DNA of 15,629 nucleotides, from contig PMOM01000195.1 in assembly GCA_003161535.1 (NCBI GenBank), positions 1-15,629 of the forward strand, in the 5' to 3' direction. Numbering within the stretch: position 1 is the first letter of the stretch; each line of letters begins with the position of its first letter. The stretch comes from Caulobacteraceae bacterium (GTDB lineage Bacteria; Pseudomonadota; Alphaproteobacteria; Caulobacterales; Caulobacteraceae). A program made the position numbers and the translations under genes. A model generated the notes under the pieces. It was not told the DNA's origin, made no database searches, and saw only the letters and a program-made list of their open reading frames with translations. Of the stretch, positions 843 through 15,192 are shown one piece after another.

Positions 843-907
843 GACCGGTTTCGCGTTGGAGCGAGGCGCGCCGCTTTGGGGCGCCGGACGAGACGAGCGG
901 CTGGTTT

Positions 908-924
908 CCCGCTTGCGAAGCGGG
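908..924 (-). terminator. Hairpin after popZ, possible terminator or mRNA-end structure
   Basis: A perfect 7-bp stem with a 3-nt loop, cccgctt-gcg-aagcggg on the plus strand, begins 8 nt past the popZ stop codon. There is no U-tract after it on the minus strand, so it may be a weak terminator, an RNA 3'-end protector, or an attenuator between popZ and valS. Confidence 0.4.
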
Positions 925-932
925 TGAAGCGC

Positions 933-1421
933 CTAGCGTACTCGACCGCGCGAGATGCGCTCAACCTCCTCGTCCACGCGCGCCTGGACGATCGAGGCCA
1001 GATGCTGGTCGAGCCAGGTCTTCAGCATGGGCCGAAGCAGTTCGCGGGCGACGTCCTCAAGGCTGCGGCCGGCGGGTGGCATGACCAGGTGGGCTCGGTC
1101 GCTGACCGAGGTGTCGACGGCCGTCGAAAGCCTGCCAAGCGAAGAGGCGGCGCTGGCGGCGGTCGACTCGCCGACCAGGCCGTGCTCCAGCCGCGCTCCG
1201 GCGGGAGGCTGCTGGGTTGGAGCGGCGGAAGGGGCGCCGCGATCGGGGGCTGGCGCATCGACGCTCGGCAAGGCCGCGGGCGCCCGTTCGGTCAACAACA
1301 GTCGCTCACCCTCCGACCTTGGCCTGGGCGGATTCTCGGGGGCCTCGTCCTCGGAAATGATCCGCCGGATGGAGGCCAGGATTTCATCCATGCTGGGTTC
1401 CGGGGCGGTCTGATCGGGCAT
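933..1421 (-). CDS. popZ: Polar organizing protein PopZ (DUF2497 family)
   Basis: PopZ self-assembles into a polar condensate that in Caulobacter tethers the ParB-parS centromere and recruits cell-cycle signalling proteins. The 162-aa product shows both conserved ends of the family: an N-terminal client-binding helix (MDEILASIRRIISEDEA, residues 11-27) and a C-terminal helical oligomerisation module (about 120-162) with RSLEDVARELLRPMLKTWLD and the terminal VDEEVERISRGRVR. The region between is disordered-looking and rich in Pro and Ala. The ATG at 1421-1419 is chosen because it gives the family's short acidic start MPDQ..EPSMDEIL; the frame is open further upstream but that part has no homology. 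Compared with C. crescentus PopZ (about 177 aa) the linker (about residues 27-84) is shorter and nearly neutral: 7 acidic against 6 Arg residues by my count. It sits between a TolC-family gene and valS. Confidence 0.95.
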   Translation of the reverse strand: MPDQTAPEPSMDEILASIRRIISEDEAPENPPRPRSEGERLLLTERAPAALPSVDAPAPDRGAPSAAPTQQPPAGARLEHGLVGESTAASAASSLGRLSTAVDTSVSDRAHLVMPPAGRSLEDVARELLRPMLKTWLDQHLASIVQARVDEEVERISRGRVR

Positions 1422-1462
1422 TTCGGCGAGCCATGGAGCTGAACGTGGAAAGTAGAGCTGAC

Positions 1463-1491
1463 GTGATACGCGACAACGCCGCCGATCGCAA
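1463..1491 (-). promoter_or_regulatory. Candidate sigma-70-type promoter for popZ
   Basis: Reading the minus strand, TTGCGA (1491-1486) is followed after 17 nt by TATCAC (1468-1463), which would start transcription about 35 nt upstream of the popZ ATG. The match is partial. No CtrA-type TTAA-N7-TTAA box or GANTC methylation site was seen in this 103-bp gap. Confidence 0.35.
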
Positions 1492-1506
1492 TTTCCTCCA
1501 CGGCCT

Positions 1507-1524
1507 GGGCGCCGCGCGCCGCCC
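1507..1524 (-). terminator. GC-rich hairpin directly after the TolC-family stop codon
   Basis: The bases immediately after the TAG of the TolC-family gene fold as a 5-bp stem (GGGCG / CGCCC) around a GC-rich 8-nt loop. No U-run follows. It could end the upstream transcript before the separate popZ promoter; the call is weak. Confidence 0.25.
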
Positions 1525-3003
1525 CTAGCGCCCGGTCTCCACGACCGCCGGCCGCTCGATGATCGCCGGCGCGCCGATGCGGTCCAATCCGGAGACCACC
1601 GGCTGCCAGGGGATCCAGCCCCACGCATGGCGCACGTGATCGAAATTGGTTTTCGGATCGTAAGGCGCCGCCACCGTGGTGAGGTCCTGGGCGAACAAGG
1701 AGCCGGTGGCGGCCAGCAAGGCGGCGGCGGCGACATATTCGTCGTGCCTGGCGGTGACCAGGGCGAGCTGGGCGTTGCCAAGATCCTGCTCGGTGATCAG
1801 CACGTCCAGGGTGGTTCGAAGGCCGGCCTGAGCCTCCTGGCGGACACCCTCGAAGGCGATATTGGCGGCGCGCACCTGTTCCTGGTTGGCCAGAAGGCCG
1901 GCGCGGGCCCCCAGGAGCTGGTTCCAGGCCCGCGAAACGCTGAGCAGAACCTGACGCCGGGTGGTCTCGATGGCGATGCGATCGACGTTGTTGTTCTCCG
2001 CCGCCTGTCGGATGCGCGATGAGGTCAGGCCGCCGGTAAACAGCGGAAAGCTGGCCACCGCCGTGGCCGACACATCGTGGCTGTAGTTGGCGAACGGGCT
2101 GGCGAGACCTAGATTGCCGCCGATGTAGCCGAGGTTGGCCTGAAGCGAGAGGGTGGGGCGGGTCTGCGCCTTGGCCTCGGCCACGCGCGCGGCGCTGGCC
2201 TGTTCGGCGTAGTCGGCCTGGCGGACTTGAGGATTGTTGCTCATGGCCGCGCTGAAGGCCTGATCGACGGTGGCCGGCAGCAGTCGGCCGAGCGAGGGTT
2301 CGGGGGCCAAGTCGCCGGGATTTTGACCGACCACGGCGGCGTAGCCGGCGCGGCTGTTGGCCAGCTGCGCCTGGGCGGCGGCAAGTTGCGCGCGGGCGGC
2401 CGCCACGCGGCCCTCGGTTTGCGCGACATCGGTGCGGGTGATTTCGCCGACCTCGAACCGGGCTTGCGATTCCTCTCGTTGGCGATCCAAAAGACGGACG
2501 TTTTCCTCGGCGATGGCGACGCTTTCCTGATCGCGCCTGACATCCGCATAGGCTTCGATGACGCTCTGCAGGACGCTCTCCTCGGTGGCCCGCAGAAGCT
2601 CGCGTCCGGCCAGTATTCCGGCCTCGGCGGCGCTCACCTGGCTCGACACGCGTCCGCCGGTGTAGATCGGCTGGGTGAGGCTCAGGGTCGCGCTGGAGGT
2701 CTGGCTCTGGCCGGTGGGAAAACTCTGGGTCTGGCCCGGCGCCGACTGGCCGGCGAACTGTTCATTGTTGGTGTCCGTGGTCACCGTCGCCTGGACCGTG
2801 GCCGTGGGCCGATAGCCCGCTTCGGCCTGCACATAGGTCTCGTCCAGGGCGCGCTGGGTGGCCCGCTGGCCCTGCAGGGTGGGATTGGACGCATAGGCCA
2901 GGGCGATGGCGTCGGCCAGGGTCTCGGCCCGCGCGCCGGCGCCGGCCGCCAAGGCGAGGCCGCAGATGGCGACTCGCAACTTGCCCCGGTGACTATTCGA
3001 CAT
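1525..3003 (-). CDS. TolC-family outer-membrane efflux / type I secretion protein (RsaF-like)
   Basis: Outer-membrane channel subunit expected to trimerise and dock onto type I secretion or efflux systems. The 492-aa protein has a Sec signal peptide (about residues 1-26, cut near GARA-ETLADAIALAY). It then has two tandem outer-membrane efflux repeats (about 27-235 and 236-440), marked by the duplicated strand-turn motifs LTQPIYTGGRV and ASFPLFTGGLTSSRIRQA and by long Ala/Gln/Glu-rich coiled helices. The C-terminal tail carries YDPKTNFDHVRHAWGWIPWQ. The ATG at 3003 is preceded by a good Shine-Dalgarno GAGGA six bases upstream. In C. crescentus a TolC paralogue used for S-layer export (RsaFb) is, as I recall, encoded next to popZ, so this is probably its orthologue; that is inference from gene order. 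No inner-membrane transporter or adaptor lies beside it, so its substrate cannot be read from context. Confidence 0.93.
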   Translation of the reverse strand: MSNSHRGKLRVAICGLALAAGAGARAETLADAIALAYASNPTLQGQRATQRALDETYVQAEAGYRPTATVQATVTTDTNNEQFAGQSAPGQTQSFPTGQSQTSSATLSLTQPIYTGGRVSSQVSAAEAGILAGRELLRATEESVLQSVIEAYADVRRDQESVAIAEENVRLLDRQREESQARFEVGEITRTDVAQTEGRVAAARAQLAAAQAQLANSRAGYAAVVGQNPGDLAPEPSLGRLLPATVDQAFSAAMSNNPQVRQADYAEQASAARVAEAKAQTRPTLSLQANLGYIGGNLGLASPFANYSHDVSATAVASFPLFTGGLTSSRIRQAAENNNVDRIAIETTRRQVLLSVSRAWNQLLGARAGLLANQEQVRAANIAFEGVRQEAQAGLRTTLDVLITEQDLGNAQLALVTARHDEYVAAAALLAATGSLFAQDLTTVAAPYDPKTNFDHVRHAWGWIPWQPVVSGLDRIGAPAIIERPAVVETGR

Positions 3004-3055
3004 GCGCCGTCCTCGACTGGCCCCGATTGAGGGGGTCTGGACCGGCTATGAACGA

Positions 3056-3070
3056 CGGCGGGGACCGCCG
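3056..3070 (-). terminator. Perfect hairpin between the PIMT-like and TolC-family genes
   Basis: The plus strand reads cggcgg-gga-ccgccg: a 6-bp stem with a 3-nt loop about 50 nt past the PIMT-like stop codon and about 50 nt ahead of the TolC-family start. There is no U-tract. It may be a terminator remnant or a structure in the tolC leader. Confidence 0.3.
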
Positions 3071-3094
3071 CTAGCCTCGCGCCGATTAAGCTTT

Positions 3095-3106
3095 CGTCAC
3101 GTGACG
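3095..3106. promoter_or_regulatory. 12-bp palindrome CGTCACGTGACG upstream of the TolC-family gene
   Basis: A perfect 12-bp inverted repeat centred on CACGTG lies in the 115-bp gap ahead of the TolC-family gene, about 90 bp upstream of its start. Its symmetry and position suit an operator for a dimeric regulator. No regulator gene is present in the window and the protein that might bind is not known. Confidence 0.3.
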
Positions 3107-3118
3107 GACGCCATGCCG

Positions 3119-3688
3119 TTAAAACACGAAGCCGCGCGGCGCCTCGAATCCGGCCATGATCGGCGGGGTGCTGTCGAACAGGGGCAAGGATCCCACCGCC
3201 CCGGCCGACCGCAGATAGAGCACGGCGCGGCCGATCGGTCCGTCGCGCTCGACCACGCCCAACCGCCCGCCCGGCGCCAGGGCCGCCAGCCAGGCCGCCG
3301 GCGCGCGCGCCACGGCGCCTTCGCATACCACCACGTCGTACGACCCGCTGGCCGGGATGGCGTCAAGCGCATCCAGACGGGTCACCGCCAGGCCCATGGC
3401 CTCCAGCACCTGGGCGGCATAGGGCGCGGCGATGGCCAGGCAGGTCTCGCCGGCGCGCGGGCGCAGGGCCTGCAACAGTTTGGCGACCTCGCGGGGCCGC
3501 AGCATCCAGCGACCCGGCGCATATTCGATCTCGGCGTCGGCATAGGCGAGGCGGCGCTTGGCGGCCGGCGCCAGGTCCTCGCGGGCGACGGCGCGCATGG
3601 CGTCCTGGATGGCAAGGTCGGGAACATCCGATGGACGCACCTGGCTGTCCACCATGTTCGTCCGCTCGGCCGCCAGGTCGGCGCTCAT
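3119..3688 (-). CDS. PIMT-family (protein-L-isoaspartate O-methyltransferase-like) protein with decayed SAM motif
   Basis: The 189-aa product starts MSADLAAERTNMVDSQVRPS and continues VPDLAIQDAMRAVARE, the conserved N-terminal part of the alphaproteobacterial PIMT family, followed by the APGRWMLRPREVAKLLQAL helix. PIMT enzymes methylate isoaspartyl residues for protein repair using S-adenosylmethionine. Here the glycine-rich motif I, normally of the type hD(V/I)GxxTGY, reads CLAIAAPYAAQVLEAMG. The next segment, which usually carries the ribose-binding acid and motif II, is shortened to about 15 residues before YDVVVCEGAVARAP. The later motif LAPGGRLGVVERD is intact. Family members usually exceed 210 residues, so this one is short and may not bind SAM. 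ATG 3688 is chosen because it fits the family start; a TATAAC-type promoter lies just upstream. Confidence 0.82.
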   Translation of the reverse strand: MSADLAAERTNMVDSQVRPSDVPDLAIQDAMRAVAREDLAPAAKRRLAYADAEIEYAPGRWMLRPREVAKLLQALRPRAGETCLAIAAPYAAQVLEAMGLAVTRLDALDAIPASGSYDVVVCEGAVARAPAAWLAALAPGGRLGVVERDGPIGRAVLYLRSAGAVGSLPLFDSTPPIMAGFEAPRGFVF

Positions 3689-3725
3689 GAGTGATCTCTG
3701 AAAAATTCGGGGCGATCCGCGCGGG

Positions 3726-3755
3726 GTTATAGGTCGCCGGCGAAGCCTGAAGCAA
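3726..3755 (-). promoter_or_regulatory. Candidate sigma-70 promoter of the PIMT-like gene
   Basis: On the minus strand TTGCTT (3755-3750) and TATAAC (3731-3726) are separated by 18 nt. The -10 box matches the consensus at five of six positions and would give a leader of about 30 nt before the ATG at 3688. Confidence 0.42.
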
Positions 3756-3791
3756 TCGATGCGCGCTTCAGAGGCCATTTGGGCGGCCTTG

Positions 3792-3820
3792 TTGCTCGCG
3801 CAAGGGCCATCTGTTAGCCA
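3792..3820 (+). promoter_or_regulatory. Candidate promoter of tRNA-Cys
   Basis: TTGCTC (3792-3797), a 17-nt spacer and TAGCCA (3815-3820) would place the transcript start a few bases before the tRNA. The -10 match is poor; position is the main support. Confidence 0.28.
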
Positions 3821-3834
3821 TCGCCACGCCTCTG

Positions 3835-3908
3835 GGCCTGGTGGCGGAGTGGTTACGCAGCGGACTGCAAATCCGCGCACCCGAGTTCGATTCTCGGCCA
3901 GGCCTCCA
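3835..3908 (+). tRNA. tRNA-Cys (anticodon GCA)
   Basis: A complete cloverleaf can be drawn. The acceptor arms GGCCTGG / CCAGGCC pair perfectly. The anticodon stem GCGGA / TCCGC holds loop CTGCAAA with anticodon GCA at 3867-3869. The T arm is CCGAG-TTCGATT-CTCGG. The discriminator base is U, as needed for cysteinyl-tRNA synthetase, and CCA is encoded (3906-3908). It reads toward the fimbria operon, which is transcribed in the opposite direction and ends 29 bp away. Confidence 0.97.
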
Positions 3909-3937
3909 TCGCCCTCGCAACGGTCTCAGCCGAGCGG

Positions 3938-4957
3938 CTAGTCGTAGGTCACCGTAACGGAGAGGGTGCCCTGGTAAAGGCCGGAAGGCGTTGTGTTGGT
4001 GACCGCGAAGTGGCCGCCGACGCCAAAAGGCAGGGTGCCGGATGACCCCACCGTGCCGCCGAGGGTGCCGCTTGCGAGGGTCGTCGTGGTGGTGACGGTC
4101 AGGATGTTGGCTCCCGAGGTCAGGTTGAAGTTCGGCGCGCTGATCGTGAAGGTTTGCTGGCCCTCACCGGTGACGGTGTAGTTGGCCGCGGTTCCGGTGG
4201 AGCCGGCGAGCGCGCCGTTGCCCGCGCCGCTGATTGACCGGCCACCCGCCGCGGCGATGGTCACCGTGTTGGTGGTGCCCACGAGGGTGGACCTCACGAT
4301 GGAGCCGAAGTTCAGGAGCGAGTTGTTGGCTATGCTGATGGGGCGAAGGACGGTGGCCGTGGCGGTGCCCGCCGCCAAGTTGACCGGTGTGCCGGTATCG
4401 GGCGCGATGCCCTCCACCTCGAATTGCGACGTGGCCGCGCCGGTGGCGCCGCTCGTGTTGTCGGAAATCGGTATGTCCATGCCCAGGAGGAAGGTCTCGG
4501 TGCCGTTATGGGCGACCGAGGTGGTGTTCTTGAAGGTCAGCGTCGAGGTTCCGGCGCCGGTCACGCTCGACGGCGTGAACGAGCCGGCGGACACGTTGAA
4601 AACCCCCAGAGCGCCCATCCGCCCGCTCGGCGAGCCCACGGCGACGATCTTGAACAGGGAGCTGGCGCACGATCCCGATGTCCCACCGCAGGTGGCCGTG
4701 ACGGTGATCAGGCTCGTCCCAGTCGTGACCCGCACGGCCGAGCCGCCGGCTTGGCCGATGGCGCCGGAACTGGCGGTGACGGTGAAGGTCGTGGTCCCGC
4801 TTCCGGCCGCGCCGGAGACCACCTTCCCCAAAGCGGGCGTCGCCGTGACCGTGGCCGATAGCGTTCCCGCCGCCCAGCCTGGCGCGGCGGTCAGACAGAG
4901 CAAGGCGCCGGCCACGCCGGCCGCGTGAAATCGTCCGAGGCGTCCGGCGCGCGTCAT
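3938..4957 (-). CDS. Two-domain DUF4402 fimbrial protein, putative tip/adhesin subunit
   Basis: Last gene of the fimbria operon, 34 bp after the usher. The 339-aa product has a signal peptide (about 1-30, ending GWAA). Residues 196-339 form a DUF4402 pilin domain that aligns with the two small pilins of the same operon: VLRPISIANNSLLNFGSIV against their VIQPITIANNTLLAFGTVI, then YTVTGEGQQTFTISAPNFNL and a final strand ending VTVTYD. Residues 31-195 are an extra beta-rich domain with the only two cysteines of the mature protein (C90, C97), likely a disulfide loop. This half may be a very divergent second DUF4402 copy (FLLGMDIPISDN resembles the GVGG strand region). One extra N-terminal domain on a single gene copy at the operon end suggests a tip adhesin or an anchoring subunit. 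The ATG at 4957 gives a clean signal peptide; the Shine-Dalgarno is weak. The ligand cannot be predicted. Confidence 0.8.
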   Translation of the reverse strand: MTRAGRLGRFHAAGVAGALLCLTAAPGWAAGTLSATVTATPALGKVVSGAAGSGTTTFTVTASSGAIGQAGGSAVRVTTGTSLITVTATCGGTSGSCASSLFKIVAVGSPSGRMGALGVFNVSAGSFTPSSVTGAGTSTLTFKNTTSVAHNGTETFLLGMDIPISDNTSGATGAATSQFEVEGIAPDTGTPVNLAAGTATATVLRPISIANNSLLNFGSIVRSTLVGTTNTVTIAAAGGRSISGAGNGALAGSTGTAANYTVTGEGQQTFTISAPNFNLTSGANILTVTTTTTLASGTLGGTVGSSGTLPFGVGGHFAVTNTTPSGLYQGTLSVTVTYD

Positions 4958-4991
4958 CCTGAACAGAGTAACGCGTAACCTAGCGGAACGG

Positions 4992-7976
4992 TCAATTTAT
5001 TGTCGGTGCGGTGACCAGGGGCGCGTCGGGCCTGTCGAACACAACCTCGGCGGTCAGGTCCGGCAGGGAGCCGCCGGTCGCCGGCACCACCAGGCGTTTG
5101 GGGTCTTTCAGGCGCATGTGCAGGCGTTCGGCCTGTTCGGGGTCGAGCTGGAAGTCATAGGCCCCGGCGCTCAGGTGCTCGAAGTCGGCGGTGCCGTCGT
5201 ATTCGGTGGAGGCCTCCAGGGGCGTCCCGTGTTCGGGGACGAGGCGAACGCGCACGGCTGACAATCCGACCAGCGCTCCGTCCTGCATCAGCACGACGTG
5301 GGCGATCAGTTCGCTGCTGGCGGTGATCGGATAGGGGACCCGAATCACCAGGCCGGGCCTGGGCGTGAAGATGACGGTGTGCGGCGGCGACTCCACGAAG
5401 GGATCGTCGATGGCGTCCAGCCCCACCTGCAGCCGGGCCGTCGGCGAGGAGCCCAGGCCGGTGATGAAGACGCGGCCCTTGGCGTCGGTCACCGCCTTGC
5501 TCGCCCCCCCATCGATGCTGACATTGGCCACCGGCTTGTCGCCCGGCTCATAGACGCCGCTGCCGCTGTTATCGACGAAGGAATCGAAGGCGACGCTGCC
5601 CCCCGCCGCCGGGCCCGGACGAGTGACCACATAGCGCCGGCTGGCCGGATCGAACACCAGACCGAAGGCGAAGGAGACGCCGATCTGCCAGACATTGGTT
5701 GGCGTGGTGTAATTGCCGCTCACCGACAGGTCGCCATAGCGGGTGTGCATGATCGTCCCGGCCTGAAACGTGGTGTCCCGGCCGGCGAAGGACTGGCCAA
5801 GGCCCAGGTGCAGGGTGGTGGTCTTGGTCAGATCGTGGTCGGCGGTCACGCTGAGGTCGGCGACCTGAAACTTCGGTGTGATGTCGTAGTCCAGGCTGGC
5901 GCGCAGTTGCCATCTGAACTTGTAGAAGGTCGAGGCGGACAGATTGCCGGTGGTGACGGTGCTGCCGGCGGCCGCCGGCGTGGTGCTGGCCAGGGCCCCG
6001 GGCATGCCGTTGGCCAGGGCGACGCTCGCCGCGTTGGCCGAAACCGGAGTGACATTGGCCGGCGGGGGCGGGGCGTTGGACTGGAAATCCACCGAGTTCG
6101 ACAGCAGGATGTCGCGCACGGTGACCGAGGAGTGAAAGCTCCCGATCAGGCTCGAAGAGTGGTCGGCGAAGACATTGTAGGATCCCCCCAGGCTAAGGGG
6201 CAGCAGAAGGCGTTTGAACGGCTGCAGGTTGAAATCCATGTCGACTTCGCTGTGGCTCACCAGCACGCGAGGATCGGCGCCGCTGCCCACGGTCTCGTCG
6301 AGAAAGCCACCCTGATATTCGGCGTGGCGCACGACGGTCGAGATGCCGAAGAGTTTGCCGGCCAGCCCCAGGGATTCGGCCGAGCCGCCCCGGTTGTCCC
6401 CGGCCGCGTCCAGTTGCACCGAGAAGCCCAGAAACGACGAGCGCGTCCCGGCGGTGATCATGAAGCGCCGCAGGCCATTGGGCGGGGTATAGGCGGCCAG
6501 GCCACCGATCAGGGTCACGCCTTCGGTCAGGCCATAGGCGGCGTCGGCGGTCAGCCGCAGCGCGCCGGTTCCCGGCGTCACCGGCTGGCCTGGCGCCAGC
6601 TTTTGCACATTGATCAGCGGCGTGTCTTGCTGGACGACGCCCATCTCGAAGGTCAACTTGCCCTTGGCCAGTTGGCCGCCGCCGACATTGACGATCCGCG
6701 TGGTTTCGCTGCGCACCCCGCCTGGGCCATTGAGGACGATGCGGATCACGTTCAGCCCGCGCACCAGGGGCACGTTGAGGAATTCATACCGCCCCTGCAC
6801 CGGGGTTCTCTGGCCGCTGCGCAGGACATCGTTGATGTAAAGCTCGGCGTCATAGCCGATCGGCAGGTCGCCGCGCAGGTCGATGTGATTGAAGACGCTG
6901 GTCTGTTCCAGCGGCGCGGTGGTGAAGGCGAAGCCCCGGCCGCCCGTGCCGCGCGGGCCTAGCGCCAGGACCGGGGTGAAGACATCGCCGGCGCTGGCGC
7001 TGGTGGCGTTAATCGGGCCAAGCAGGCCGCCCTTGACGTCGTGCCGCTCGAAGGTGGCCTGGACGCTGGAGAGCTGGCCGTTCAGGTCCGAGCCGAGGAA
7101 ACCCCGGAAGCCCGTGTAAAGCAGGTCATCGGCCACGCGGATTTCGTAGCCGCGCGGAAATTGCGGGGAAATGGCGCTGCCGCCGCTCTGCAGCGAGATG
7201 TCGAAGGCCGGCGGACTGAACAGCAAATAGGGCGAGACAATGCGCAGGGCCGGCTCGGCGCCTTCGACGTCCGGCCGCAGGGCGCGCAGCTGCGCGACGC
7301 GCTCCAGTCGGGCCTGGATCGGCAGCTTCTCGGTGGCCTTGAGCTTGAGCTGCAGCGCCTCGACGTCGGTGGTGATCTTGACCGGCAGGATGCGCTCCAG
7401 CGCCGAGGCCCGCACGTAGATGTCGACACCCGTGGCGGCGATGTCCAGCGGCGTGAGGTTCAGATCGCGTCCGTTCAGGCGGCCGACCCCGCTGGCCAGA
7501 TCGATGAGCAACGCCTGCTGAGCCTGACCCAAAGATCCGCTCACCCGCCGCTCGGTGGGCGATACAGTGATATTCAGGTCCAGCAGACGGGCGAGTTCCC
7601 CCAGCGGCAGCAGGGGATCGTCGGGCGATCCGTAGGCCGGCAGGGCGTCGGTGAGGGTAACTCCGTCCAGATCCACGGCCAGCAACAGCAGATCTTCGTC
7701 GTGGATTTCCGCCTTGGGGACGGCGGTCGCGGCCGCCAGGGCGGGGGGCCCGGCTTGCGGTGGAGGCGCGGCGGGTCTGGTCGGGACGGCCGTGCGCGGC
7801 CCGGCTGTATCCGTGGGCGTCGACGGGCTAGCGGCGGCCAGGGCGACCGCGGGCCACCCCCCGGTCAAACCAACAAGCGCCAGGGCCAGCCAGGAGGCCC
7901 AACTACGGAGTTTTGAAGGTTGTTGTCGCAACCACTCGACCCGGGGCCGTGTCGTCGTCCTTGAAACTGATTTCAA
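4992..7976 (-). CDS. Divergent fimbrial outer-membrane usher
   Basis: Large outer-membrane protein expected to assemble and secrete the DUF4402 pilins. Layout of the 994 aa: signal peptide (hydrophobic 29-48); Pro/Ala/Thr linker (49-88); periplasmic N-terminal domain (about 89-225) made of two similar half-repeats around PLLPLGELARLLDLNITVSP and DIYVRASALERILPVKITTD; a beta-barrel with a plug-like insert (about 363-432, GYDAELYINDVLRSGQ..EFLNVPLVRGLNVIRIVLNG); more barrel strands to about 780; then two Ig-like C-terminal domains (about 790-880 and 885-980), the first starting FDSFVDNSGSGVYEPGDKPV as in CNA-B/SdrD-type folds. The order matches chaperone-usher ushers, but sequence similarity to PapC-type ushers is low. 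No cysteine is present. The frame opens with TTG at 7976, overlapping the chaperone gene by 74 bp; a second TTG at 7931 would give a more usual signal peptide and a 29-bp overlap. Translational coupling is likely with either start. Confidence 0.82.
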   Translation of the reverse strand: MKSVSRTTTRPRVEWLRQQPSKLRSWASWLALALVGLTGGWPAVALAAASPSTPTDTAGPRTAVPTRPAAPPPQAGPPALAAATAVPKAEIHDEDLLLLAVDLDGVTLTDALPAYGSPDDPLLPLGELARLLDLNITVSPTERRVSGSLGQAQQALLIDLASGVGRLNGRDLNLTPLDIAATGVDIYVRASALERILPVKITTDVEALQLKLKATEKLPIQARLERVAQLRALRPDVEGAEPALRIVSPYLLFSPPAFDISLQSGGSAISPQFPRGYEIRVADDLLYTGFRGFLGSDLNGQLSSVQATFERHDVKGGLLGPINATSASAGDVFTPVLALGPRGTGGRGFAFTTAPLEQTSVFNHIDLRGDLPIGYDAELYINDVLRSGQRTPVQGRYEFLNVPLVRGLNVIRIVLNGPGGVRSETTRIVNVGGGQLAKGKLTFEMGVVQQDTPLINVQKLAPGQPVTPGTGALRLTADAAYGLTEGVTLIGGLAAYTPPNGLRRFMITAGTRSSFLGFSVQLDAAGDNRGGSAESLGLAGKLFGISTVVRHAEYQGGFLDETVGSGADPRVLVSHSEVDMDFNLQPFKRLLLPLSLGGSYNVFADHSSSLIGSFHSSVTVRDILLSNSVDFQSNAPPPPANVTPVSANAASVALANGMPGALASTTPAAAGSTVTTGNLSASTFYKFRWQLRASLDYDITPKFQVADLSVTADHDLTKTTTLHLGLGQSFAGRDTTFQAGTIMHTRYGDLSVSGNYTTPTNVWQIGVSFAFGLVFDPASRRYVVTRPGPAAGGSVAFDSFVDNSGSGVYEPGDKPVANVSIDGGASKAVTDAKGRVFITGLGSSPTARLQVGLDAIDDPFVESPPHTVIFTPRPGLVIRVPYPITASSELIAHVVLMQDGALVGLSAVRVRLVPEHGTPLEASTEYDGTADFEHLSAGAYDFQLDPEQAERLHMRLKDPKRLVVPATGGSLPDLTAEVVFDRPDAPLVTAPTIN

Positions 7977-8922
7977 GTTGCTCGCCGGGCGCGGGCGTCC
8001 GCTTTAAGGGGATCTGCATCTGTCGGTGATCGATTTCCGTATAAACGCCGACGCCGCGCGCCAGGCCCAGGGGGTCCTTGGAGCCCTTCTCCTTGGCGCC
8101 GCGCACCTCGATATTGCCGAACAGGGAGCTCGTCCCCGATCGAACGATTTCGAATTTCAGCACCGAGATTGGGCGGGGCGGAGAGGCGCCATCGGGCGAC
8201 AGATTCTCCGTCGTGATGCTTACCTTCTCGATGCTTCCGCGCACGTCGGGCGGGCCGACGCGGATGATCAGCGGAATGCTGATCCCGAAGACCGAGTTGA
8301 TCTGAAACCGCAGCTCCCGCGGATTGCCGATGGCGGCCTGCTCGGCGGTGAGACCGATGTCCCTGGGCGGAATGGTGGTGACCGTCAGGTGGGTTCGATA
8401 TTCGCCCGGCTGCGGCGGATTGCCGGCCGCGCCCGCCACCGGCGCTTCGGCGCGGATGCGGATGGTCTGGCCCTTGCCTGGCGCCAGGGTGGCGCGACGC
8501 GGCGCCGTCACCACCATGGCTTTGGCGGACAACAGCTTATCGAGATAGGGCTTGAGGTCTGGCTTGCTCGCGGCTTCGTCCACGGCCACGATCTGTCCGT
8601 CGGGAAGCATGATCCGGTCGACCAGCTGGATATCGAAGGTGGCCGGCCCCGTGCCCTGGTTGAAGACGTAGACGGTGGCCGTCCGTCCCAGGTGGTCAAA
8701 GGTGACGCGCTTGGGCGAAATGTTCAGGTTGGCGTGAATGTTGTTGGTCGGCGCCACTGTCGTGGCGGCCGGAGGCGTGGCGGCGGTCGCGCGGGCCGTC
8801 CCTTGGGCGATGGCCACGCACGCAAACGCGGAGAAGACGCCGAACAAAACAGCGGGAGCCAACCATGCGCCCGCGCGGCGAGCGTAGAGCCGCGTGGGCG
8901 AAGTTGCCGCCTTGCCTGCCAT
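7903..8922 (-). CDS. PapD-like periplasmic fimbrial chaperone
   Basis: The chaperone would bind nascent pilins in the periplasm and donate a strand to complete their fold before delivery to the usher. The 339-aa product has a long signal sequence (about 1-40) and an Ala/Thr/Pro linker. Domain 1 (about 64-215) contains NISPKRVTFDHLGRTATVYV and APGKGQTIRIRAEAP, which correspond to the conserved Arg-containing first strand and the basic/QTIRI strand of PapD-like chaperones, followed by GEYRTHLTVTTIPP. Domain 2 (about 225-339) is more variable. Length is above the usual 230-250 aa, partly through the N-terminal linker. ATG 8922 is chosen; an upstream GTG at 9000 would add 26 residues with no signal-peptide features and no ribosome-binding site. 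It follows the third subunit gene by 96 bp and overlaps the usher gene. Confidence 0.87.
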   Translation of the reverse strand: MAGKAATSPTRLYARRAGAWLAPAVLFGVFSAFACVAIAQGTARATAATPPAATTVAPTNNIHANLNISPKRVTFDHLGRTATVYVFNQGTGPATFDIQLVDRIMLPDGQIVAVDEAASKPDLKPYLDKLLSAKAMVVTAPRRATLAPGKGQTIRIRAEAPVAGAAGNPPQPGEYRTHLTVTTIPPRDIGLTAEQAAIGNPRELRFQINSVFGISIPLIIRVGPPDVRGSIEKVSITTENLSPDGASPPRPISVLKFEIVRSGTSSLFGNIEVRGAKEKGSKDPLGLARGVGVYTEIDHRQMQIPLKRTPAPGEQLEISFKDDDTAPGRVVATTTFKTP

Positions 8923-9018
8923 GCGCCGCGTCCGCCAAGTCGATCCGGCCCCAGGACCGTGGAGAGGAGGCAAATCTTGAAGGTTTCCGATTAATCCCAC
9001 GTGAACATTGCCCCGGCG

Positions 9019-9591
9019 CTAATTGTACGAGGCGATCACGGTCAGCACGCCCTTGTAATTGCCAGGTACAAGGTTGTTGCCCGCGGTCACCGCCCCGCCG
9101 ACGCTGAAGCTCAGGACCCCGCCGTTCAGCGTTCCGACCACCGCGACCGGTCCGCTGAACATGCTTCCGGTCACCACGCCGGGGACGACACCTGCCCCGG
9201 CGCCCAATCCGGGGGTGGCGCCAACCGGACTGACCGTGCTCACCGTAATGGTGTTGGCGCCGCCTGCTTGCACCACATCCACCGTGGCCGGCACCGACAT
9301 CGATAGGGCCGAACCCCCGCTGGAGACCGCGACGTTGGCGGTGGAACTGGTCACGCCGCCGCTCACCCCGCTGCCCACCGCCGCCGGTATGTTGGCCATG
9401 CCGCTGTTGACGATGGTGTTGACGGTGGACGCCTGGACGGTGAAGGTCAGGTTCTGCGTCACCGTGATCGAGGCTGGGTCATTGACCTGGGCGGTGGCCT
9501 GGGTCACCGAGCTGGCGCTGTTCTGCGCGCGCGACGCCGAAGCGCCAAGCGCCGCGGCGGCCAATATCGTCAGGGCGAGGAAGGCGCGCAT
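9019..9591 (-). CDS. Third, divergent DUF4402-like fimbrial subunit
   Basis: Secreted 190-aa protein: signal peptide MRAFLALTILAAAALGASASRA, then QNSASS, the same mature start (AQNSA) as the two neighbouring pilins. The body is rich in Val, Ser, Ala, Gly and Thr with no cysteine. It keeps the family's ends: SITVTQNLTFT near the N-terminus, and GGAVTAGNNLVPGNYKGVLT leading to a last strand that ends IASYN. The central part (about 55-140) is a Gly/Ser-rich sequence not shared with the other subunits. ATG 9591 is preferred over ATG 9603 because GAGG lies six bases upstream of it and the other has no ribosome-binding site. It is probably a minor or linker pilin, 116 bp downstream of a major pilin and 96 bp ahead of the chaperone. 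The exact role is inferred from position. Confidence 0.78.
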   Translation of the reverse strand: MRAFLALTILAAAALGASASRAQNSASSVTQATAQVNDPASITVTQNLTFTVQASTVNTIVNSGMANIPAAVGSGVSGGVTSSTANVAVSSGGSALSMSVPATVDVVQAGGANTITVSTVSPVGATPGLGAGAGVVPGVVTGSMFSGPVAVVGTLNGGVLSFSVGGAVTAGNNLVPGNYKGVLTVIASYN

Positions 9592-9640
9592 GGGAAGCCT
9601 CATAGCACGACACCCGCGCTCGGCGTAGCGCGACGTGCGA

Positions 9641-9708
9641 GGCGGCCCCGCCCGACCTGGGAAGGACCGCCCTTGCGCGTTCAAATTCAGTCGATGCCGG
9701 TGTCGGCC
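9641..9708 (-). repeat. Intergenic repeat copy A with hairpin (9641-9671)
   Basis: This 68-bp block, following the second pilin gene, is a near copy of 10251-10318. The 37 bp at 9672-9708 are identical in the two copies. On the minus strand the rest folds as GGCGGUCC / GGGCCGCC (8 bp with one U-G pair) around a 15-nt region with an inner CCC/GGG stem. It may be a 3'-end, processing or stability element between pilin cistrons. Confidence 0.7.
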
Positions 9709-10226
9709 TAGTTGTAGGCGACGGTGACGGCGAGGTTGCCGGTGTAGGCGGCCGATGTGGTGGTGGTGGTTACCGGAAATGAGCCGCCCACGCCGAACGT
9801 GGCGCTGCCGGTCGAGCCGATGGCGCCGGTGAGGGTGCCGGTCGCGGCGGTGGTGGTGGTGGTGACGACCAGGGTGTTGGAGCCCGAGGTCAGGTTGAAG
9901 CTCGGGGCGCTGATCGAAAAGGTCTGGCCGCCTTCGCCGCCGACGGTGTAGGTCGCCCGGCCGCTGGCCGCCGAGCCGCCGGCCGTGGCGTTGCCGCCGG
10001 TGAACGTTCGGGCGCCCGAGGTAGGATCAATGGTCACCGTGGTGGTGGTGTCGGTGGGCTTGATGACCGTGCCGAAGGCCAGCAGGGTGTTGTTGGCGAT
10101 GGTGATCGGCTGGATGACGGTCGCCGAAGACGTAGTCGTCGAGAGGGCCGAATTCTGGGCCAGGGCCGGAGCGGCCAGGGCGCTAAGCGCGGCGGCGCCG
10201 ACGGCGATCTTCAGAGCGAGATTCAT
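9708..10226 (-). CDS. DUF4402 major pilin, copy A
   Basis: The 172-aa fimbrial subunit starts with signal peptide MNLALKIAVGAAALSALAAPALA and is cut before QNSALSTTT, likely the free N-terminal donor strand. The DUF4402 pattern follows: ATVIQPITIANNTLLAFGTV, ARTFTGG, ATYTVGGEGGQTFSISAP, FGVGGSFPVTTTTT, and the last strand GNLAVTVAYN with penultimate Tyr for chaperone binding. There are no cysteines; Thr runs (up to six) are striking. The ribosome-binding site AAGGA is six bases before the ATG. It differs from copy B (10322-10840) at about 18 of 172 residues by eye and shares its downstream spacer, so the pair arose by a tandem duplication of gene plus spacer. Two strong, near-identical pilin genes at the front of the operon point to the main shaft subunit. 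Confidence 0.88.
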   Translation of the reverse strand: MNLALKIAVGAAALSALAAPALAQNSALSTTTSSATVIQPITIANNTLLAFGTVIKPTDTTTTVTIDPTSGARTFTGGNATAGGSAASGRATYTVGGEGGQTFSISAPSFNLTSGSNTLVVTTTTTAATGTLTGAIGSTGSATFGVGGSFPVTTTTTSAAYTGNLAVTVAYN

Positions 10227-10250
10227 GTCAATCCTTTCCAGGGTTCAAGG

Positions 10251-10318
10251 GGCGGCCCAGCCCGATCAGGGGAGGGCCGCACTTGCGCGTTCAAATTCAG
10301 TCGATGCCGGTGTCGGCC
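10251..10318 (-). repeat. Intergenic repeat copy B with hairpin (10252-10280)
   Basis: Second copy of the 68-bp pilin spacer, located between the two major pilin genes. Positions 10282-10318 are identical to 9672-9708. The hairpin has a perfect 7-bp stem GCGGCCC / GGGCCGC with an inner CCC/GGG stem, so pairing is kept although the sequence differs from copy A. The gene B side also has a 4-nt difference (agtt) that changes the stop codon from TAG in copy A to TAA. Confidence 0.7.
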
Positions 10319-10321
10319 AGT

Positions 10322-10840
10322 TTAGTTGTAGGCGACGGTGACGGCGAGGTTGCCGGTGTAGGCCGCCGAAACCGTGGTGGTGGCGACCGGGATCGAACCG
10401 CCGACGCCGAACGTGGCGCTGCCGGTCGATCCGATCGCGCCGCTGAGCGTGCCGGTGGCGGCGGTCGTGGTGGTGGTGACCACCAGGGTGTTGGCGCCCG
10501 AGGTCAGGTCGAAGCTCGGCGCGCTGATCGAAAAGGTCTGACCGCCTTCGCCGCCCACCGTATAGGTGGCCCGGCCGCTGGCCGCCGAACCGCCCGCCAC
10601 GCCATTGCCGCCAGTAAACGTACGGGCGCCCGATGTGGGGTCTATGGTCACGGTGGTCGTCGTGGTCGTCGGCTTAATCACGGTGCCGAAGGCCAGCAGG
10701 GTGTTGTTGGTCAGGGTGATCGGCTGGATGATGGTCGCCGAAGCCGTGGTCGTCGAGAGGGCCGAATTCTGCGCCAGGGCCGGAACGGCCAGGGCGGAGA
10801 GGACGGCCGCTGCGGCGGCGATCTTCAGGGCGAGTTTCAT
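10322..10840 (-). CDS. DUF4402 major pilin, copy B (first gene of the fimbria operon)
   Basis: The 172-aa product has signal peptide MKLALKIAAAAAVLSALAVPALA, mature start QNSALSTTT, DUF4402 core (ATIIQPITLTNNTLLAFGTV, ATYTVGGEGGQTFSISAP, FGVGGSIPVATTTV) and terminal strand GNLAVTVAYN. It is near-identical to copy A, with changes concentrated in the signal peptide and in exposed-looking loops (GGNGVAGG against GGNATAGG; VATTTVS against VTTTTTS). ATG 10840 is chosen because it gives the same signal peptide as copy A and has AAGGA nine bases upstream; the frame is open 204 bp further up, but that stretch does not look coding. As the promoter-proximal gene it is probably the most abundant product. 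Polymerisation would be by donor-strand exchange through the chaperone and usher encoded downstream. Confidence 0.88.
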   Translation of the reverse strand: MKLALKIAAAAAVLSALAVPALAQNSALSTTTASATIIQPITLTNNTLLAFGTVIKPTTTTTTVTIDPTSGARTFTGGNGVAGGSAASGRATYTVGGEGGQTFSISAPSFDLTSGANTLVVTTTTTAATGTLSGAIGSTGSATFGVGGSIPVATTTVSAAYTGNLAVTVAYN

Positions 10841-10961
10841 GCTACCAATTCCTTGGGGGCTGCGTCCCGGAGGGGACAAGGTTTTTGTCGAGGGGTGATC
10901 CGCGTGCAATCCCGCCACGTCATGGTCGGGGCAAAGCACACGAATCATGCTTGAGGATTGG

Positions 10962-10990
10962 TAAATGGGGCATGATGTTCCCCATGTCAA
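10962..10990 (-). promoter_or_regulatory. Candidate promoter/operator region of the fimbria operon
   Basis: On the minus strand a perfect TTGACA (10990-10985) sits 17 nt before CATTTA (10967-10962), a poor -10. A perfect inverted repeat ATGGGG / CCCCAT with 9-nt spacer (10965-10970 and 10980-10985) lies between and over these boxes, as an operator would. The rest of the 204-bp gap between the operon and the phosphoesterase holds no gene that I can support. Confidence 0.35.
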
Positions 10991-10991
10991 C

Positions 10992-11062
10992 GGCCTTGTG
11001 TACCGCTCACTCAAAAAAAGGGCACATGGCCTTATACCGCTCACTCAAAATAGAGGGCTCAT
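10992..11062. repeat. Tandem direct repeat, 36 + 35 bp, duplicating the end of the phosphoesterase gene
   Basis: Unit 1 (10992-11027) and unit 2 (11028-11062) abut. They share a perfect 16-bp core, taccgctcactcaaaa (11001-11016 and 11035-11050), with matching flanks (ggcctt at the start; ggg and cat at the end). Unit 2 includes the last codons and the stop of the phosphoesterase gene; unit 1 is a diverged extra copy just after it. Confidence 0.8.
11013..11033 (-). terminator. Possible intrinsic terminator of the phosphoesterase gene
   Basis: Minus-strand RNA would read AAGGC-CAUGU-GCCCUU followed by further U residues (seven T in a row including the stem end): a short 5-bp stem with one bulge and a U-tract, about 12 nt past the stop codon. 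The stem is weak, but this is the only hairpin with a U-run that I found in the window. It lies in repeat unit 1. Confidence 0.35.
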
Positions 11063-12103
11063 GGCTTTCACCCCCTGTGAGGATGCGTCGGCGTGTCGCA
11101 GATGCTGACTGATGCCGAAGGCGTCCTCCAGCGTCCGCAGCAGAGAGTAGTGATTGTAGGGCGTATCATCTTTCACGCCTCGCGGCCCGTGGTTGGTGAT
11201 CACGATGGTCGGGATGTGGCCGCCGCCGTAGTTCGAAGCGGCGGTCGGCGTCACCGCACAGCAGCCCTCCCGCGTTGGGCCCGATCCTTCGTCGAAGGTG
11301 ATGACGATGGCGAAGTTCTGCTTCGAGCGCCAGGCCGCGGTCGCCAGGATCTCGCCCACCAGCTTGCCGATCACGGCGTCGCCGCGCCGGATCAGAGGCC
11401 CGACGTTGGAGCCGATGCAATCGGCCGGCACGCCGGCGCCGTACAGGCCGTGCATCTCGTTGCATTGGTTGGGGACGATCAGGGCGAAGTTGGGCAGATG
11501 GCCACTCGCCAGATCGGCCTCCAGCTGATCGAAACCGACGATGTGGCTCGCGCGATCGCGATCGTGCTGGACGGAGGCGAAATTCATGAAGCCCGAGTGC
11601 TTGGACGCGTAAAGCGCGGTGGGATCGCCGGCGATGTAGGCCAGGGAGCCGGGAGTCGGCAGACTCTCGTAATAGCCCTTCCAGGTCATGCCCACGGCCG
11701 CGAGCTGGTCGCCCAGGTGGGGCGCGTACACCGTGTGATCGGGATATCCCGGCTGCCGGGTCGCGCTCCAGCACGCCGGATCGGTGGAACCCGGTTTGCA
11801 ATAGAAGGCGTCGTCGTCGTGGATGCCGAAGGTGTCTCCGCCCAGGAGGGCCACGTAGTTGGCTTCGCTGGGATGGACCTCGCCGTAGAAGTGCGTCGCG
11901 TCGCCATAGCGCTTGGCCAGGGCGGCGATGTTGGGCGCGTCGATGCCGCTCACCACCTGGTCGTAGTTCTTGTTTTCCTCGACGATGACGAAGATGTGGG
12001 CGTAGCGCGGCACGCCCTCCAGATTGGGAGCGGCTCGCGCGGTCGTGGAAATGATCCCGGCCGCCAGGGCCAGGGTCGCGGCAAATCCTCGAGCGACAAT
12101 CAT
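11045..12103 (-). CDS. Secreted phosphoesterase (PF04185, AcpA / phospholipase C-like)
   Basis: The 352-aa enzyme belongs to the phosphoesterase family that includes acid phosphatases such as AcpA and bacterial phospholipases C. A signal peptide (about 1-25, ending TARAA) indicates periplasmic or secreted action. Family motifs: HIFVIVEENKNYDQVVSG (metal-binding Glu43-Asn44), HPSEANYVALLGGD (Ser79 at the place of the catalytic residue), VITFDEGSG (Asp271-Glu272, metal site), IPTIVITNHGPRG, and the closing NHYSLLRTLEDAFG. Six cysteines in the mature part (102, 111, 214, 229, 281, 282) fit disulfides. The start ATG 12103 has a strong GGAGGGGG ribosome-binding site. The gene is monocistronic: 204 bp separate it from the fimbria operon and it is divergent from tRNA-Asn. 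The substrate cannot be decided; phosphomonoesterase is more likely than phospholipase given the size. Confidence 0.9.
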   Translation of the reverse strand: MIVARGFAATLALAAGIISTTARAAPNLEGVPRYAHIFVIVEENKNYDQVVSGIDAPNIAALAKRYGDATHFYGEVHPSEANYVALLGGDTFGIHDDDAFYCKPGSTDPACWSATRQPGYPDHTVYAPHLGDQLAAVGMTWKGYYESLPTPGSLAYIAGDPTALYASKHSGFMNFASVQHDRDRASHIVGFDQLEADLASGHLPNFALIVPNQCNEMHGLYGAGVPADCIGSNVGPLIRRGDAVIGKLVGEILATAAWRSKQNFAIVITFDEGSGPTREGCCAVTPTAASNYGGGHIPTIVITNHGPRGVKDDTPYNHYSLLRTLEDAFGISQHLRHADASSQGVKAMSPLF

Positions 12104-12217
12104 AAACCCCCTCCAACCCGGCGCGGCCGCGATGCGCCACCTGACAGCACGATTGTGACAAATAGCCGGTCACCCGGGCCGGCGCCCGCGGTTTTTGCCG
12201 CCGGCCCGGCGCTTTCC

Positions 12218-12246
12218 TTGCGCGCCCGCGCGCCCCAAGCTAAGAG
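12218..12246 (+). promoter_or_regulatory. Candidate promoter of tRNA-Asn
   Basis: TTGCGC (12218-12223), 17 nt, then TAAGAG (12241-12246). Read as the Caulobacter housekeeping pattern TTGACgS-N10-14-GCTANAWC it is TTGCGCG-N14-GCTAAGAG, a fair match, about 25 nt ahead of the tRNA. Confidence 0.38.
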
Positions 12247-12271
12247 CCGCTTCCTTCGTTCGATGCCCTGA

Positions 12272-12347
12272 TCCTCGGTAGCTCAGTTGGTAGAGCAGCC
12301 GGCTGTTAACCGGCGGGTCGCAGGTTCGAGTCCTGCCCGGGGAGCCA
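12272..12347 (+). tRNA. tRNA-Asn (anticodon GTT)
   Basis: 76-nt cloverleaf: acceptor TCCTCGG / CCGGGGA (one T-G wobble), D arm GCTC..GAGC, anticodon stem with loop CTGTTAA (anticodon GTT at 12305-12307), T arm with GTTCGAGTC, discriminator G, CCA encoded at 12345-12347. These fit bacterial tRNA-Asn. The gene for the alpha/beta hydrolase follows on the same strand. Confidence 0.97.
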
Positions 12348-12429
12348 GCCTCATCCTTCGAGGCCAAGCCGCATCGTCAGGTCGAGGAGCGCCGGGCTGA
12401 CACGCTGGACCAGCCTCATCGGGATCGCC

Positions 12430-13323
12430 GTGACCATCTTCGTCGCGGCTGGCGCGGGCGCGGCGGCCGCGCCTCTCTACGCCGATTGCCGGGGCGAGGC
12501 GTCGGCATCGCCGACGGTGATCCTGGAAGCTGGAGCCTTCGGAACCTCGGCCGACTGGGATTTCGTGCTGGATGATCTGGCCAAGGGCGGGCGGGTGTGC
12601 GCCTACGATCGGGCGGGCCTGGGCCGCTCGCCGCCGACGCCGGACGCCACCGACGCGCTCGCCAAGGCGGCGGAACTGGGTGCCTTGCTGGACCAACTTC
12701 ACGAGACGGAGCCGGTGATTCTGGTCGGCCATTCCAACGGCGCCCTTTACATCGAAGCTTTCGCGGGACGCTCGCCTGGGCGGGTGGCGGGACTGGTCTA
12801 TGTCAACGGCGTCGGCTCCGACGATCTTGACGACCCGCTCTTGCTGCGCGCCCTGGCGCGGGAGCGGCGCCTTTCGGACCTGGCGGTGATCGCCGCTCGA
12901 TTGGGCCTGAGCCCTCTGATCGCCTCGCGGTTGATCGGCGATGAGGGGTTGGGCGGCGAGGCGGCGGCGCGCAAGCGGGTGGCCCTGACCTCCCTCGCCT
13001 CCCTGCGTGTCGCCCGTGATGAAGACAGGGCGATCGTTCCAGCCCTTAAGACTGTGCGTGCATTGGGAGATGCGACCCGCCTCATCCCCACGGTGGTCAT
13101 CGTCGGAGCGCCCTATCCAAAAGAGCGCCTCGCCCGGGCCTGGCGGGCGGCTGAGATCGCGCCGGCCGCGCGCGCCGACCATGCCTGGATTCTCGATGCG
13201 CCCGGCGCCAGTCACGTCTCGCCGCTTGCCCGCGACCGCGCCTACATCGACGCCGCCGTGGGCTGGCTGCGCGCGCCCTTCGTCGCCCGATCTAAAGACA
13301 CCGTCCCGGCTCCCGCGCATTGA
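12430..13323 (+). CDS. Secreted alpha/beta-hydrolase fold protein
   Basis: Probable exported hydrolase (esterase-like) of unknown substrate. From GTG 12430 it has 297 residues. Fold landmarks: oxyanion-region strand VILEAGAFGTSADW (30-43), CAYDRAGLGRS (57-67), nucleophile elbow VGHSNG with Ser102, lid-like helical region (about 135-200), and catalytic-His loop GASHVSP (His262). The acid usually found after strand 7 is not obvious: that position reads VVIVGAPYPKERL. The start is uncertain. GTG 12430 cuts into a hydrophobic signal sequence and has no good ribosome-binding site. In the same frame, CTG at 12397 has GAGGAG seven bases upstream and would give TRWTSLIGIAVTIFVAAGAG, a complete signal peptide (308 aa). 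No ATG, GTG or TTG lies between it and the tRNA. The gene lies alone behind tRNA-Asn. Confidence 0.85.
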   Translation: MTIFVAAGAGAAAAPLYADCRGEASASPTVILEAGAFGTSADWDFVLDDLAKGGRVCAYDRAGLGRSPPTPDATDALAKAAELGALLDQLHETEPVILVGHSNGALYIEAFAGRSPGRVAGLVYVNGVGSDDLDDPLLLRALARERRLSDLAVIAARLGLSPLIASRLIGDEGLGGEAAARKRVALTSLASLRVARDEDRAIVPALKTVRALGDATRLIPTVVIVGAPYPKERLARAWRAAEIAPAARADHAWILDAPGASHVSPLARDRAYIDAAVGWLRAPFVARSKDTVPAPAH

Positions 13324-13453
13324 GCCCGTCTTGCTCGCAAGGCCCCATTGAGCGACACCATGCCGGCTGATGAAGTCGAACGCTTTCTTCCCAATGGGCC
13401 GACGCCTTCACGCTCGCGCCCTAGCGGATATGAAAACTTGGAGAGTCTGAACG

Positions 13454-14632: not shown

Positions 14633-14638
14633 ACGCGC

Positions 14639-15079
14639 CTACCAGGCTCCGACGTTCTGCATCGAGGTCCACGGCTCGGCAGGTGTCAGCGCGCCCCCCT
14701 TCTGCAGCAGTTCTATGGAGATGCCGTCCGGGGAGCGCACAAAAGCCATGTGGCCGTCGCGGGGCGGACGGTTGATGGTCACGCCGGCGTCCATCAGCCG
14801 TTGGCAGAGGGCGTGGATGTCATCCACCTGATAGGCGAGATGGCCGAAATTGCGCCCTTCCCCATAGGCCTGCGGATCCCAGTTGTGGGTGAGCTCCACC
14901 ATCGGCGCTCGCTTGGCCTTGGCCGCCTCGACGTCATCGGGCGCGGCCAGAAAGACCAGGGTGAAACGCCCGGCGGGGTTGTCGACACGGCTGACTTCCT
15001 CAAGTCCCAGCTTCGCGCAATAGAAGTCCAGCGCCCCCGGAAGGTCGGTGACCCGCACCATGGTGTGAAGATATCTCAC
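14639..15079 (-). CDS. gloA: Glyoxalase I (lactoylglutathione lyase)
   Basis: Converts the hemithioacetal of methylglyoxal and glutathione into S-lactoylglutathione in the cytoplasm, the first step of methylglyoxal detoxification. The 146-aa product begins MRYLHTMVRVTDLPGALDFY, the standard GloA start, and keeps all four metal ligands expected from E. coli GloA: His5 (YLHTM), Glu62 (MVELTHNW), His80 (FGHLAYQV) and Glu123 (GISIELLQ). It is a two-module VOC-fold protein of normal length with a C-terminal tail ending QNVGAW. GTG at 15079-15077 is chosen because AAGGAG lies seven bases upstream and the protein then starts exactly like the family; an open frame 27 bp further up adds no homology. 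It is convergent with the PDZ gene and divergent from the RND adaptor. No glyoxalase II gene is nearby. Confidence 0.93.
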   Translation of the reverse strand: MRYLHTMVRVTDLPGALDFYCAKLGLEEVSRVDNPAGRFTLVFLAAPDDVEAAKAKRAPMVELTHNWDPQAYGEGRNFGHLAYQVDDIHALCQRLMDAGVTINRPPRDGHMAFVRSPDGISIELLQKGGALTPAEPWTSMQNVGAW

Positions 15080-15092
15080 GCAAAGTCTCCTT

Positions 15093-15108: not shown

Positions 15109-15192
15109 TTAACTCGATCTAGCCCAATCTGGCGTGAAACCTGTCCGCGTTTTCATTTGCGTCGAGACAGGGCGCGACGGAAAAGGCGATTC

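Follow-up and report, generated by a model that had tools for sequence, protein, structure and literature searches.

Organization of the operon and its subunits

Six genes of a Caulobacteraceae bacterium, on contig PMOM01000195.1 (positions 1 to 15,629, the whole stretch analyzed here, hereafter the window), lie in series on the minus strand and appear to form an operon for a chaperone-usher pilus with DUF4402 subunits. Their order is the one given by an earlier reading of the bare DNA (the sequence-only reading): pilin 1, pilin 2, third subunit, chaperone, usher, and two-domain subunit. All six frames are open, and the operon is flanked by a phosphoesterase-family gene (11045-12103) on one side and tRNA-Cys (3835-3908, plus strand) on the other. 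The assembly (GCA_003161535.1; genome G000, contig C50) is fragmented, comprising 302 contigs and 1.9 Mb at 71% completeness, and has only three DUF4402 matches, all in this operon (pilin 1, pilin 2, and the two-domain subunit). The features of the locus are:

10322-10840, minus strand: pilin 1, 172 amino acids (aa), secreted, ending ...VTVAYN; Pfam DUF4402 at 70 bits (cut-off 25.2); Tyr at C-terminal position -2, Ala at -14
10227-10321, minus strand: intergenic hairpin after pilin 1 (predicted fold)
9708-10226, minus strand: pilin 2, a tandem duplicate of pilin 1; DUF4402 at 68.4 bits
9604-9707, minus strand: hairpin after pilin 2, resembling the spacer hairpin after pilin 1
9019-9603, minus strand: third subunit, remote DUF4402 relative; Gly at -14, Tyr at -2
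7903-8922, minus strand: PapD-type periplasmic chaperone, 339 aa, whose relatives match PapD_N
4992-7976, minus strand: outer-membrane usher (frame as listed); AlphaFold2 model with a predicted local distance difference test score (pLDDT) of 85.5 and a FimD/PapC fold
7272-7718, minus strand: usher N-terminal domain (residues ~87-235), two similar beta-beta-alpha-beta-beta units plus a helix in the model's secondary structure
5649-7208, minus strand: barrel of the usher (residues 257-776), with a DSSP count of 24 strands and a plug (residues ~358-432)
5034-5597, minus strand: usher C-terminal beta domains (residues ~794-981); the FimD alignment reaches FimD residue 833
3938-4957, minus strand: two-domain subunit and putative tip adhesin, with two Cys in its N-terminal beta-sandwich and a C-terminal DUF4402 domain at 70.8 bits (residues 207-338)
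11001-11016 and 11035-11050, minus strand: 16-nt direct repeat in two exact copies, 34 nt apart and ~160 nt upstream of pilin 1; a candidate site for a regulator

The sequence-only reading had described DUF4402 pilins, and the Pfam model indeed scores above its cut-off in pilin 1, pilin 2, and the C-terminal half of the two-domain subunit. Pilins 1 and 2 are identical at 449 of 519 nt, with 43 silent differences and 18 residue changes among 173 codons. The spacers 3' of the two genes are also alike (73/91 aligned bases identical) and fold at -34.6 and -55.8 kcal/mol (values without a shuffle control); these GC-rich hairpins could set expression levels. The third subunit has no significant Pfam match (the best, LdpA_C, has an E of 0.014 and lies below its cut-off); 11 of the 16 frames that it matched by phmmer in related loci were also found by the DUF4402 subunits, and it shares the C-terminal motif of the other subunits. 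It is a remote DUF4402 relative and probably a minor subunit. None of the four subunits has a spore-coat-U domain (Pfam, E<=1).

Among the single-domain subunit frames of the family, 46 of 53 have no cysteine past residue 25. The pilin N-terminal extensions are short, Ala/Ser/Thr-rich, and weakly hydrophobic. For the two-domain subunit (model pLDDT 88.9; alignment A5, 44 rows), the best Foldseek match is the CfaB-CfaB fusion 3f84 (E 1.1e-4), and FimH-FimC entry 1kiu chain B is also matched (5.1e-4), with integrins and cohesins placed among or above the pilus proteins in both structure searches. One row that looked frame-misread (L034) was left out of alignment A4, and fused or cut frames (L005, L023, L026, L028, L031, L035, L036, L038) were also excluded. 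The DUF4402 half of this protein lacks a free N-terminal extension, as expected of a tip subunit.

The usher and the chaperone

Ushers are defined by a 24-strand barrel with a plug, an N-terminal domain, and C-terminal domains (PMC3650583). The sequence-only reading had staked its usher assignment on such a barrel, and the predicted structure contains it, with 24 strands (DSSP count) and a plug after strand 6; FimD and PapC score above every non-usher. The structural alignments to FimD and PapC, at ~11% identity, begin at usher residue 236 or later and so leave the N-terminal domain outside; this domain is present, without a match to FimD's own. The 994-aa usher frame begins at a TTG inside the chaperone gene. 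Because residues 1-86 have a pLDDT below 50 and an identical database protein (P0001) was called as 958 aa, the true start is probably downstream of the listed one, at the TTG at 7931 or further in.

By sequence search, the window usher has no meaningful match among the Pfam, NCBIfam, or PDB sequence models. The Pfam Usher model (PF00577) matches neither this protein nor anything else in the assembly at E<=10, and none of 120 relatives carries it (the best 120 of the 295 matches). Alignment A1 of the ushers comprises 100 rows. A PDB profile search with the usher family returned only SdrD and a hydroxytransferase subunit, through the C-terminal domain, where an SdrD_B-like trace occurs at residues 897-944 (17.2 bits, below the cut-off). 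The window chaperone is likewise without a meaningful match in Pfam, NCBIfam, or PDB sequence models, and single-sequence hhalign comparisons with FimD, EcpC, and FimC gave no match. The hidden Markov model check proposed by the sequence-only reading therefore recovers DUF4402 in three subunits when applied to the window alone, and would not confirm the chaperone or the usher, since neither matches any profile meaningfully.

The identification of a PapD-like chaperone is instead supported by its relatives, at the level of sequence. One of them (P0125), which aligns with 83% of the query at 73% identity, bears a PF00345 (PapD_N) annotation. This domain is matched by 51 of 54 close relatives at a loose E<=1 (best 3.1e-7), and among 27 diverse family members 12 match it at E<=0.001; the superfamily-invariant proline is retained in 25 of 25 aligned rows. 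The database relatives of the chaperone are taken from the best 120 of 883 matches, and the residue counts come from frames that were collected because they resemble each other. In these, all 54 of 54 close relatives retain R72, P141, R176, S215, P217, R261, and Y294. Residues were mapped through a Pfam-recognized alphaproteobacterial chaperone (from system L053) aligned with CsuC and PapD; the classical anchor residues in PapD numbering we take to be Arg8 and Lys112.

According to PMC4654587, CsuC Pro59 is the only residue invariant across the chaperone superfamily, Arg89 marks non-classical chaperones, Ser117 is its conserved partner in archaic ones, and the classical carboxylate anchor pairs an Arg with a Lys, both in domain 1. 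In the window chaperone, Pro59, Arg89, and Ser117 correspond to P141, R176, and S215, and the archaic-type Arg and Ser are both present throughout the close relatives. R72 falls on PapD Arg8 and P217 on PapD Lys112; the classical Arg is present and the classical Lys is not. In domain 2, where the archaic marks are Tyr196 and Arg174, Y294 and R261 are candidate counterparts, the CsuC alignment spanning domain 1 only. These marks weaken with distance, as among 13 distant rows (L060-L078) the Arg89-type Arg is kept in 8, the Ser in 4, and the R72-type Arg in 10.

Profile searches of the PDB gave no identification for the close chaperone family. The family-only profile (A6) matched weakly, reaching CsuC with an E of 0.1 and a WxL-interacting protein with one of 0.0037. 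The latter was set aside as a true relative, since PapD_N matches more of the members and the usher is clearly recognizable by its fold. Strong FimC and EcpB matches of alignment A3 were not counted, given that A3 contains FimC and EcpB themselves.

Distribution and relationships of the family

A genome scan identified 38 related loci, mostly from Caulobacteraceae (Phenylobacterium, Caulobacter) and sphingomonads (Sphingomonas, Novosphingobium, Sphingobium, Rhizorhabdus), the remainder being from unclassified Alphaproteobacteria or Proteobacteria. The chaperone adjoins the usher in 36 of 38 loci, a DUF4402-type pilin lies upstream in 33 (in L006 the pilins are downstream instead), and a two-domain subunit of at least 300 aa lies downstream in 32; contig ends cut 10 loci, four upstream and six downstream. 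All three partners are kept around the usher in 28 of 38, and this association is therefore more than chance. The window's genes on either side of the operon recur almost nowhere else: among 45 related loci, for many of which the flanks covered were short, tolC was found in 2 and the alpha/beta hydrolase in 1, while the valS, PCMT, and phosphoesterase genes were found in none, and no shared chromosomal setting was seen. The operon thus acts as a self-contained cassette.

The usher profile matched 24 of 385 genomes of the class (two marginal) and 22 of 249 genomes of the order. In the phylum it matched 12 of 398, where three were outside the class and one of these was only marginal. Each tally includes the window's own genome and some weak, partial matches. 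Within the same 385 genomes, Pfam Usher was found in 32, both Pfam Usher and the family usher in 4, and DUF4402 in 17. DUF4402 and the family usher co-occur in 13 genomes (12 without the window's own) versus 1.06 expected (hypergeometric p ~1e-14, a statistic that ignores kinship among genomes and takes the three scans as having drawn the same 385 genomes, for which the handles agree). For DUF4402 and Pfam Usher, 4 genomes were observed versus 1.41 expected. Four DUF4402 genomes have no family usher, and two of these match Pfam Usher. Unusually many DUF4402 matches for its size (at least 10 in 0.9 Mb), together with split ushers, occur in genome G282 (locus L066 and other contigs).

We analyzed usher phylogeny for 40 rows, comprising 11 close family members (of 39, window included), 16 distant members, 11 Pfam-recognized ushers, FimD, and EcpC; this was a quick search with support from the Shimodaira-Hasegawa-like approximate likelihood ratio test only, and CsuD, CfaC, and other characterized ushers were left out. 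Close and distant family ushers form one group (27 rows, support 99), and ten Pfam-recognized alphaproteobacterial ushers group separately with FimD (97), a split that is favored by the selection of rows with two different profiles. EcpC and one Pfam usher lie between the groups on very long branches, and their position is unsure. The claimed distance from the Pap and Fim types is borne out by this tree. Weak matches are found across the divide: L060 and L061 score 22.2 and 23.4 bits against Pfam Usher as single proteins (cut-off 27.1), the L060 genome place reaches 28.5 bits when its neighbors are included in the frame, and L053 matches the family chaperone and usher profiles at 1e-6 and 3e-6, respectively. 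By these scores, L060, L061, and L053 bridge the family and the Pfam-recognized ushers.

Several usher relatives carry additional domains. Family ushers of L061 (4777-8451) and L068 (5619-9467) have N-terminal POTRA (ShlB-type) domains (54 and 37.3 bits), so that a domain of secretion pores is combined with an usher, another (L064, 1-3498) is fused to SPOR (53.2 bits), and protein P0011 is fused to OmpA (67 bits). Both SPOR and OmpA are kinds of domain that bind peptidoglycan.

Proposed assembly, alternatives, and genomic setting

The predicted usher fold, the chaperone residues, and the family-wide gene association support the earlier proposal of a chaperone-usher surface fiber, and we consider it very probable that the operon encodes a pilus of this kind, of a clade beyond the current usher profiles and assembled as follows. 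Subunits would reach the periplasm by their signal peptides, where the chaperone would grip the C-terminal strand of each (Gly -14, alternating hydrophobics, Tyr -2) and lend a strand to complete its fold. The usher N-terminal domain would receive the chaperone-subunit complexes, the plug would swing aside, and strand exchange would join the subunits as they are extruded through the 24-strand pore. Gene order suggests that the two near-identical pilins form the shaft, that the third subunit is probably an adaptor, and that the two-domain subunit is most likely the tip, which would bind a surface or a partner. The subunit C-terminal motif fits donor-strand completion, and the N-terminal extensions are short and rich in Ala, Ser, and Thr. 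A role in attachment or biofilm may follow.

This is a known kind of machine, and it shares several features with the classical pili of E. coli, type 1 (FimA-FimH, FimC, FimD) and P: the predicted usher barrel, plug, and C-terminal domains, the Gly -14 and Tyr -2 of the subunits, the two-domain subunit encoded last (as FimH is in fim), and the chaperone R72 at PapD Arg8. Unlike those systems, it has an usher of low identity whose N-terminal region falls outside the structural match, a proline at PapD Lys112, and DUF4402 subunits whose pilins mostly lack cysteines. Cysteine-free major subunits are found in the alternative alpha pili (CFA/I, ECP; EcpA has 0 Cys), and the best structural match of the two-domain subunit comes from CFA/I; in contrast, the usher family has no hhalign match to single EcpC (itself unsure in the tree), and the Gly -14/Tyr -2 motif is absent from EcpA and EcpD.

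A bolder reading, to which we give somewhat less than an even chance, is that the DUF4402 systems form a seventh deep clade of the chaperone-usher pathway. Their assembly chemistry would be mixed, combining subunit C-termini of Fim type with pilins free of cysteine, and their ushers would have a different N-terminal domain and, in some lineages, envelope-domain fusions. The chaperone would join the classical-type R72 with the non-classical R176 and Y294, without the classical Lys. If so, DUF4402 would be the diagnostic subunit domain, and the POTRA, SPOR, and OmpA fusions would tie the secretion pore to other envelope functions.

A spore-coat-U type pilin domain is a trait of the archaic (sigma) systems, such as Csu of Acinetobacter and CupE of Pseudomonas. 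The operon could be a divergent member of that pathway, with the same chemistry, the same thin zigzag pilus, and a different-looking pilin, a reading that we regard as possible and on balance doubtful. The chaperone residues at CsuC Pro59, Arg89, and Ser117 are shared with archaic pili, as are the two-domain subunit and the occurrence outside beta- and gammaproteobacteria, to which the classical and alternative systems are reported to be confined while archaic ones are found in many phyla (PMC9452303). The weak profile matches of L053 also speak for this reading. However, the subunits here are DUF4402 without a spore-coat-U match, the pilins are mostly cysteine-free in contrast to the conserved CsuA/B disulphide (PMC4654587), and the usher is unseen by Pfam Usher and branches apart from the ten Pfam-recognized alphaproteobacterial ushers (in a tree without CsuD).

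The proposed shaft-and-tip pilus may also be compared with a thin, flexible polyadhesive or capsule-like fiber lacking a rod with a tip, in which the terminal two-domain protein is co-assembled or capping; this seems unlikely. The gene organization allows it, the pilin N-terminal segments are short and weakly hydrophobic, and some relatives (L087-L091) carry shorter DUF4402-type frames downstream and no two-domain subunit. Nevertheless, that subunit is present in 32 of 38 loci, with six of the 38 cut on its side, and its DUF4402 half has no free N-terminal extension, which suits a tip subunit. Decay of the operon, with loss of its function in this organism, is very unlikely: the distribution is patchy (22/249 genomes of the order, several matches weak and partial), but the frames are open, the pilin duplicates differ mostly at silent codons, and the chaperone retains all seven family-invariant residues checked. 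A reading without a chaperone-usher system, in which the barrel is unrelated (porin or autotransporter-like) and its neighbors are Ig-like secreted proteins, is highly improbable, given FimD and PapC as top structural matches (plug and C-terminal domains included), the conserved neighborhood and subunit motif, and the sub-threshold Usher matches of L060 and L061.

The attachment of Caulobacterales and sphingomonads has mostly been studied through holdfast and type IV pili, and both groups gain a further candidate surface fiber. The open-access literature searched does not mention DUF4402, and no title among the matches listed names such a system; this fits the earlier suggestion that its role may not have been described, and the branch itself, found in many Alphaproteobacteria, seems to be undescribed. 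The usher family occurs across many alphaproteobacterial families and escapes surveys that rely on Pfam, and DUF4402, a domain of unknown function, likely serves as a pilus subunit domain. Named isolates carry the system, cultivated Novosphingobium taihuense and Phenylobacterium deserti among them, which is therefore testable.

Around the operon, the 16-nt direct repeat recurs nowhere else in the assembly, even when up to 2 mismatches are allowed, and a 14-nt part of it occurs in 4 of 106 loci, all from this same place. Promoter and terminator scans were no richer than shuffles (0 versus 0.6, and 2 versus 4.2). The phosphoesterase-family gene (96.5 bits) lies directly upstream on the same strand, and tRNA-Cys and tRNA-Asn (12272-12347, also plus strand) bracket the region; tRNA sites often host gene exchange. 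Elsewhere in the window, between tolC and valS, a minus-strand gene (933-1781) encodes a DUF2497 domain (70.4 bits), a family that presumably includes the polar organizer PopZ.
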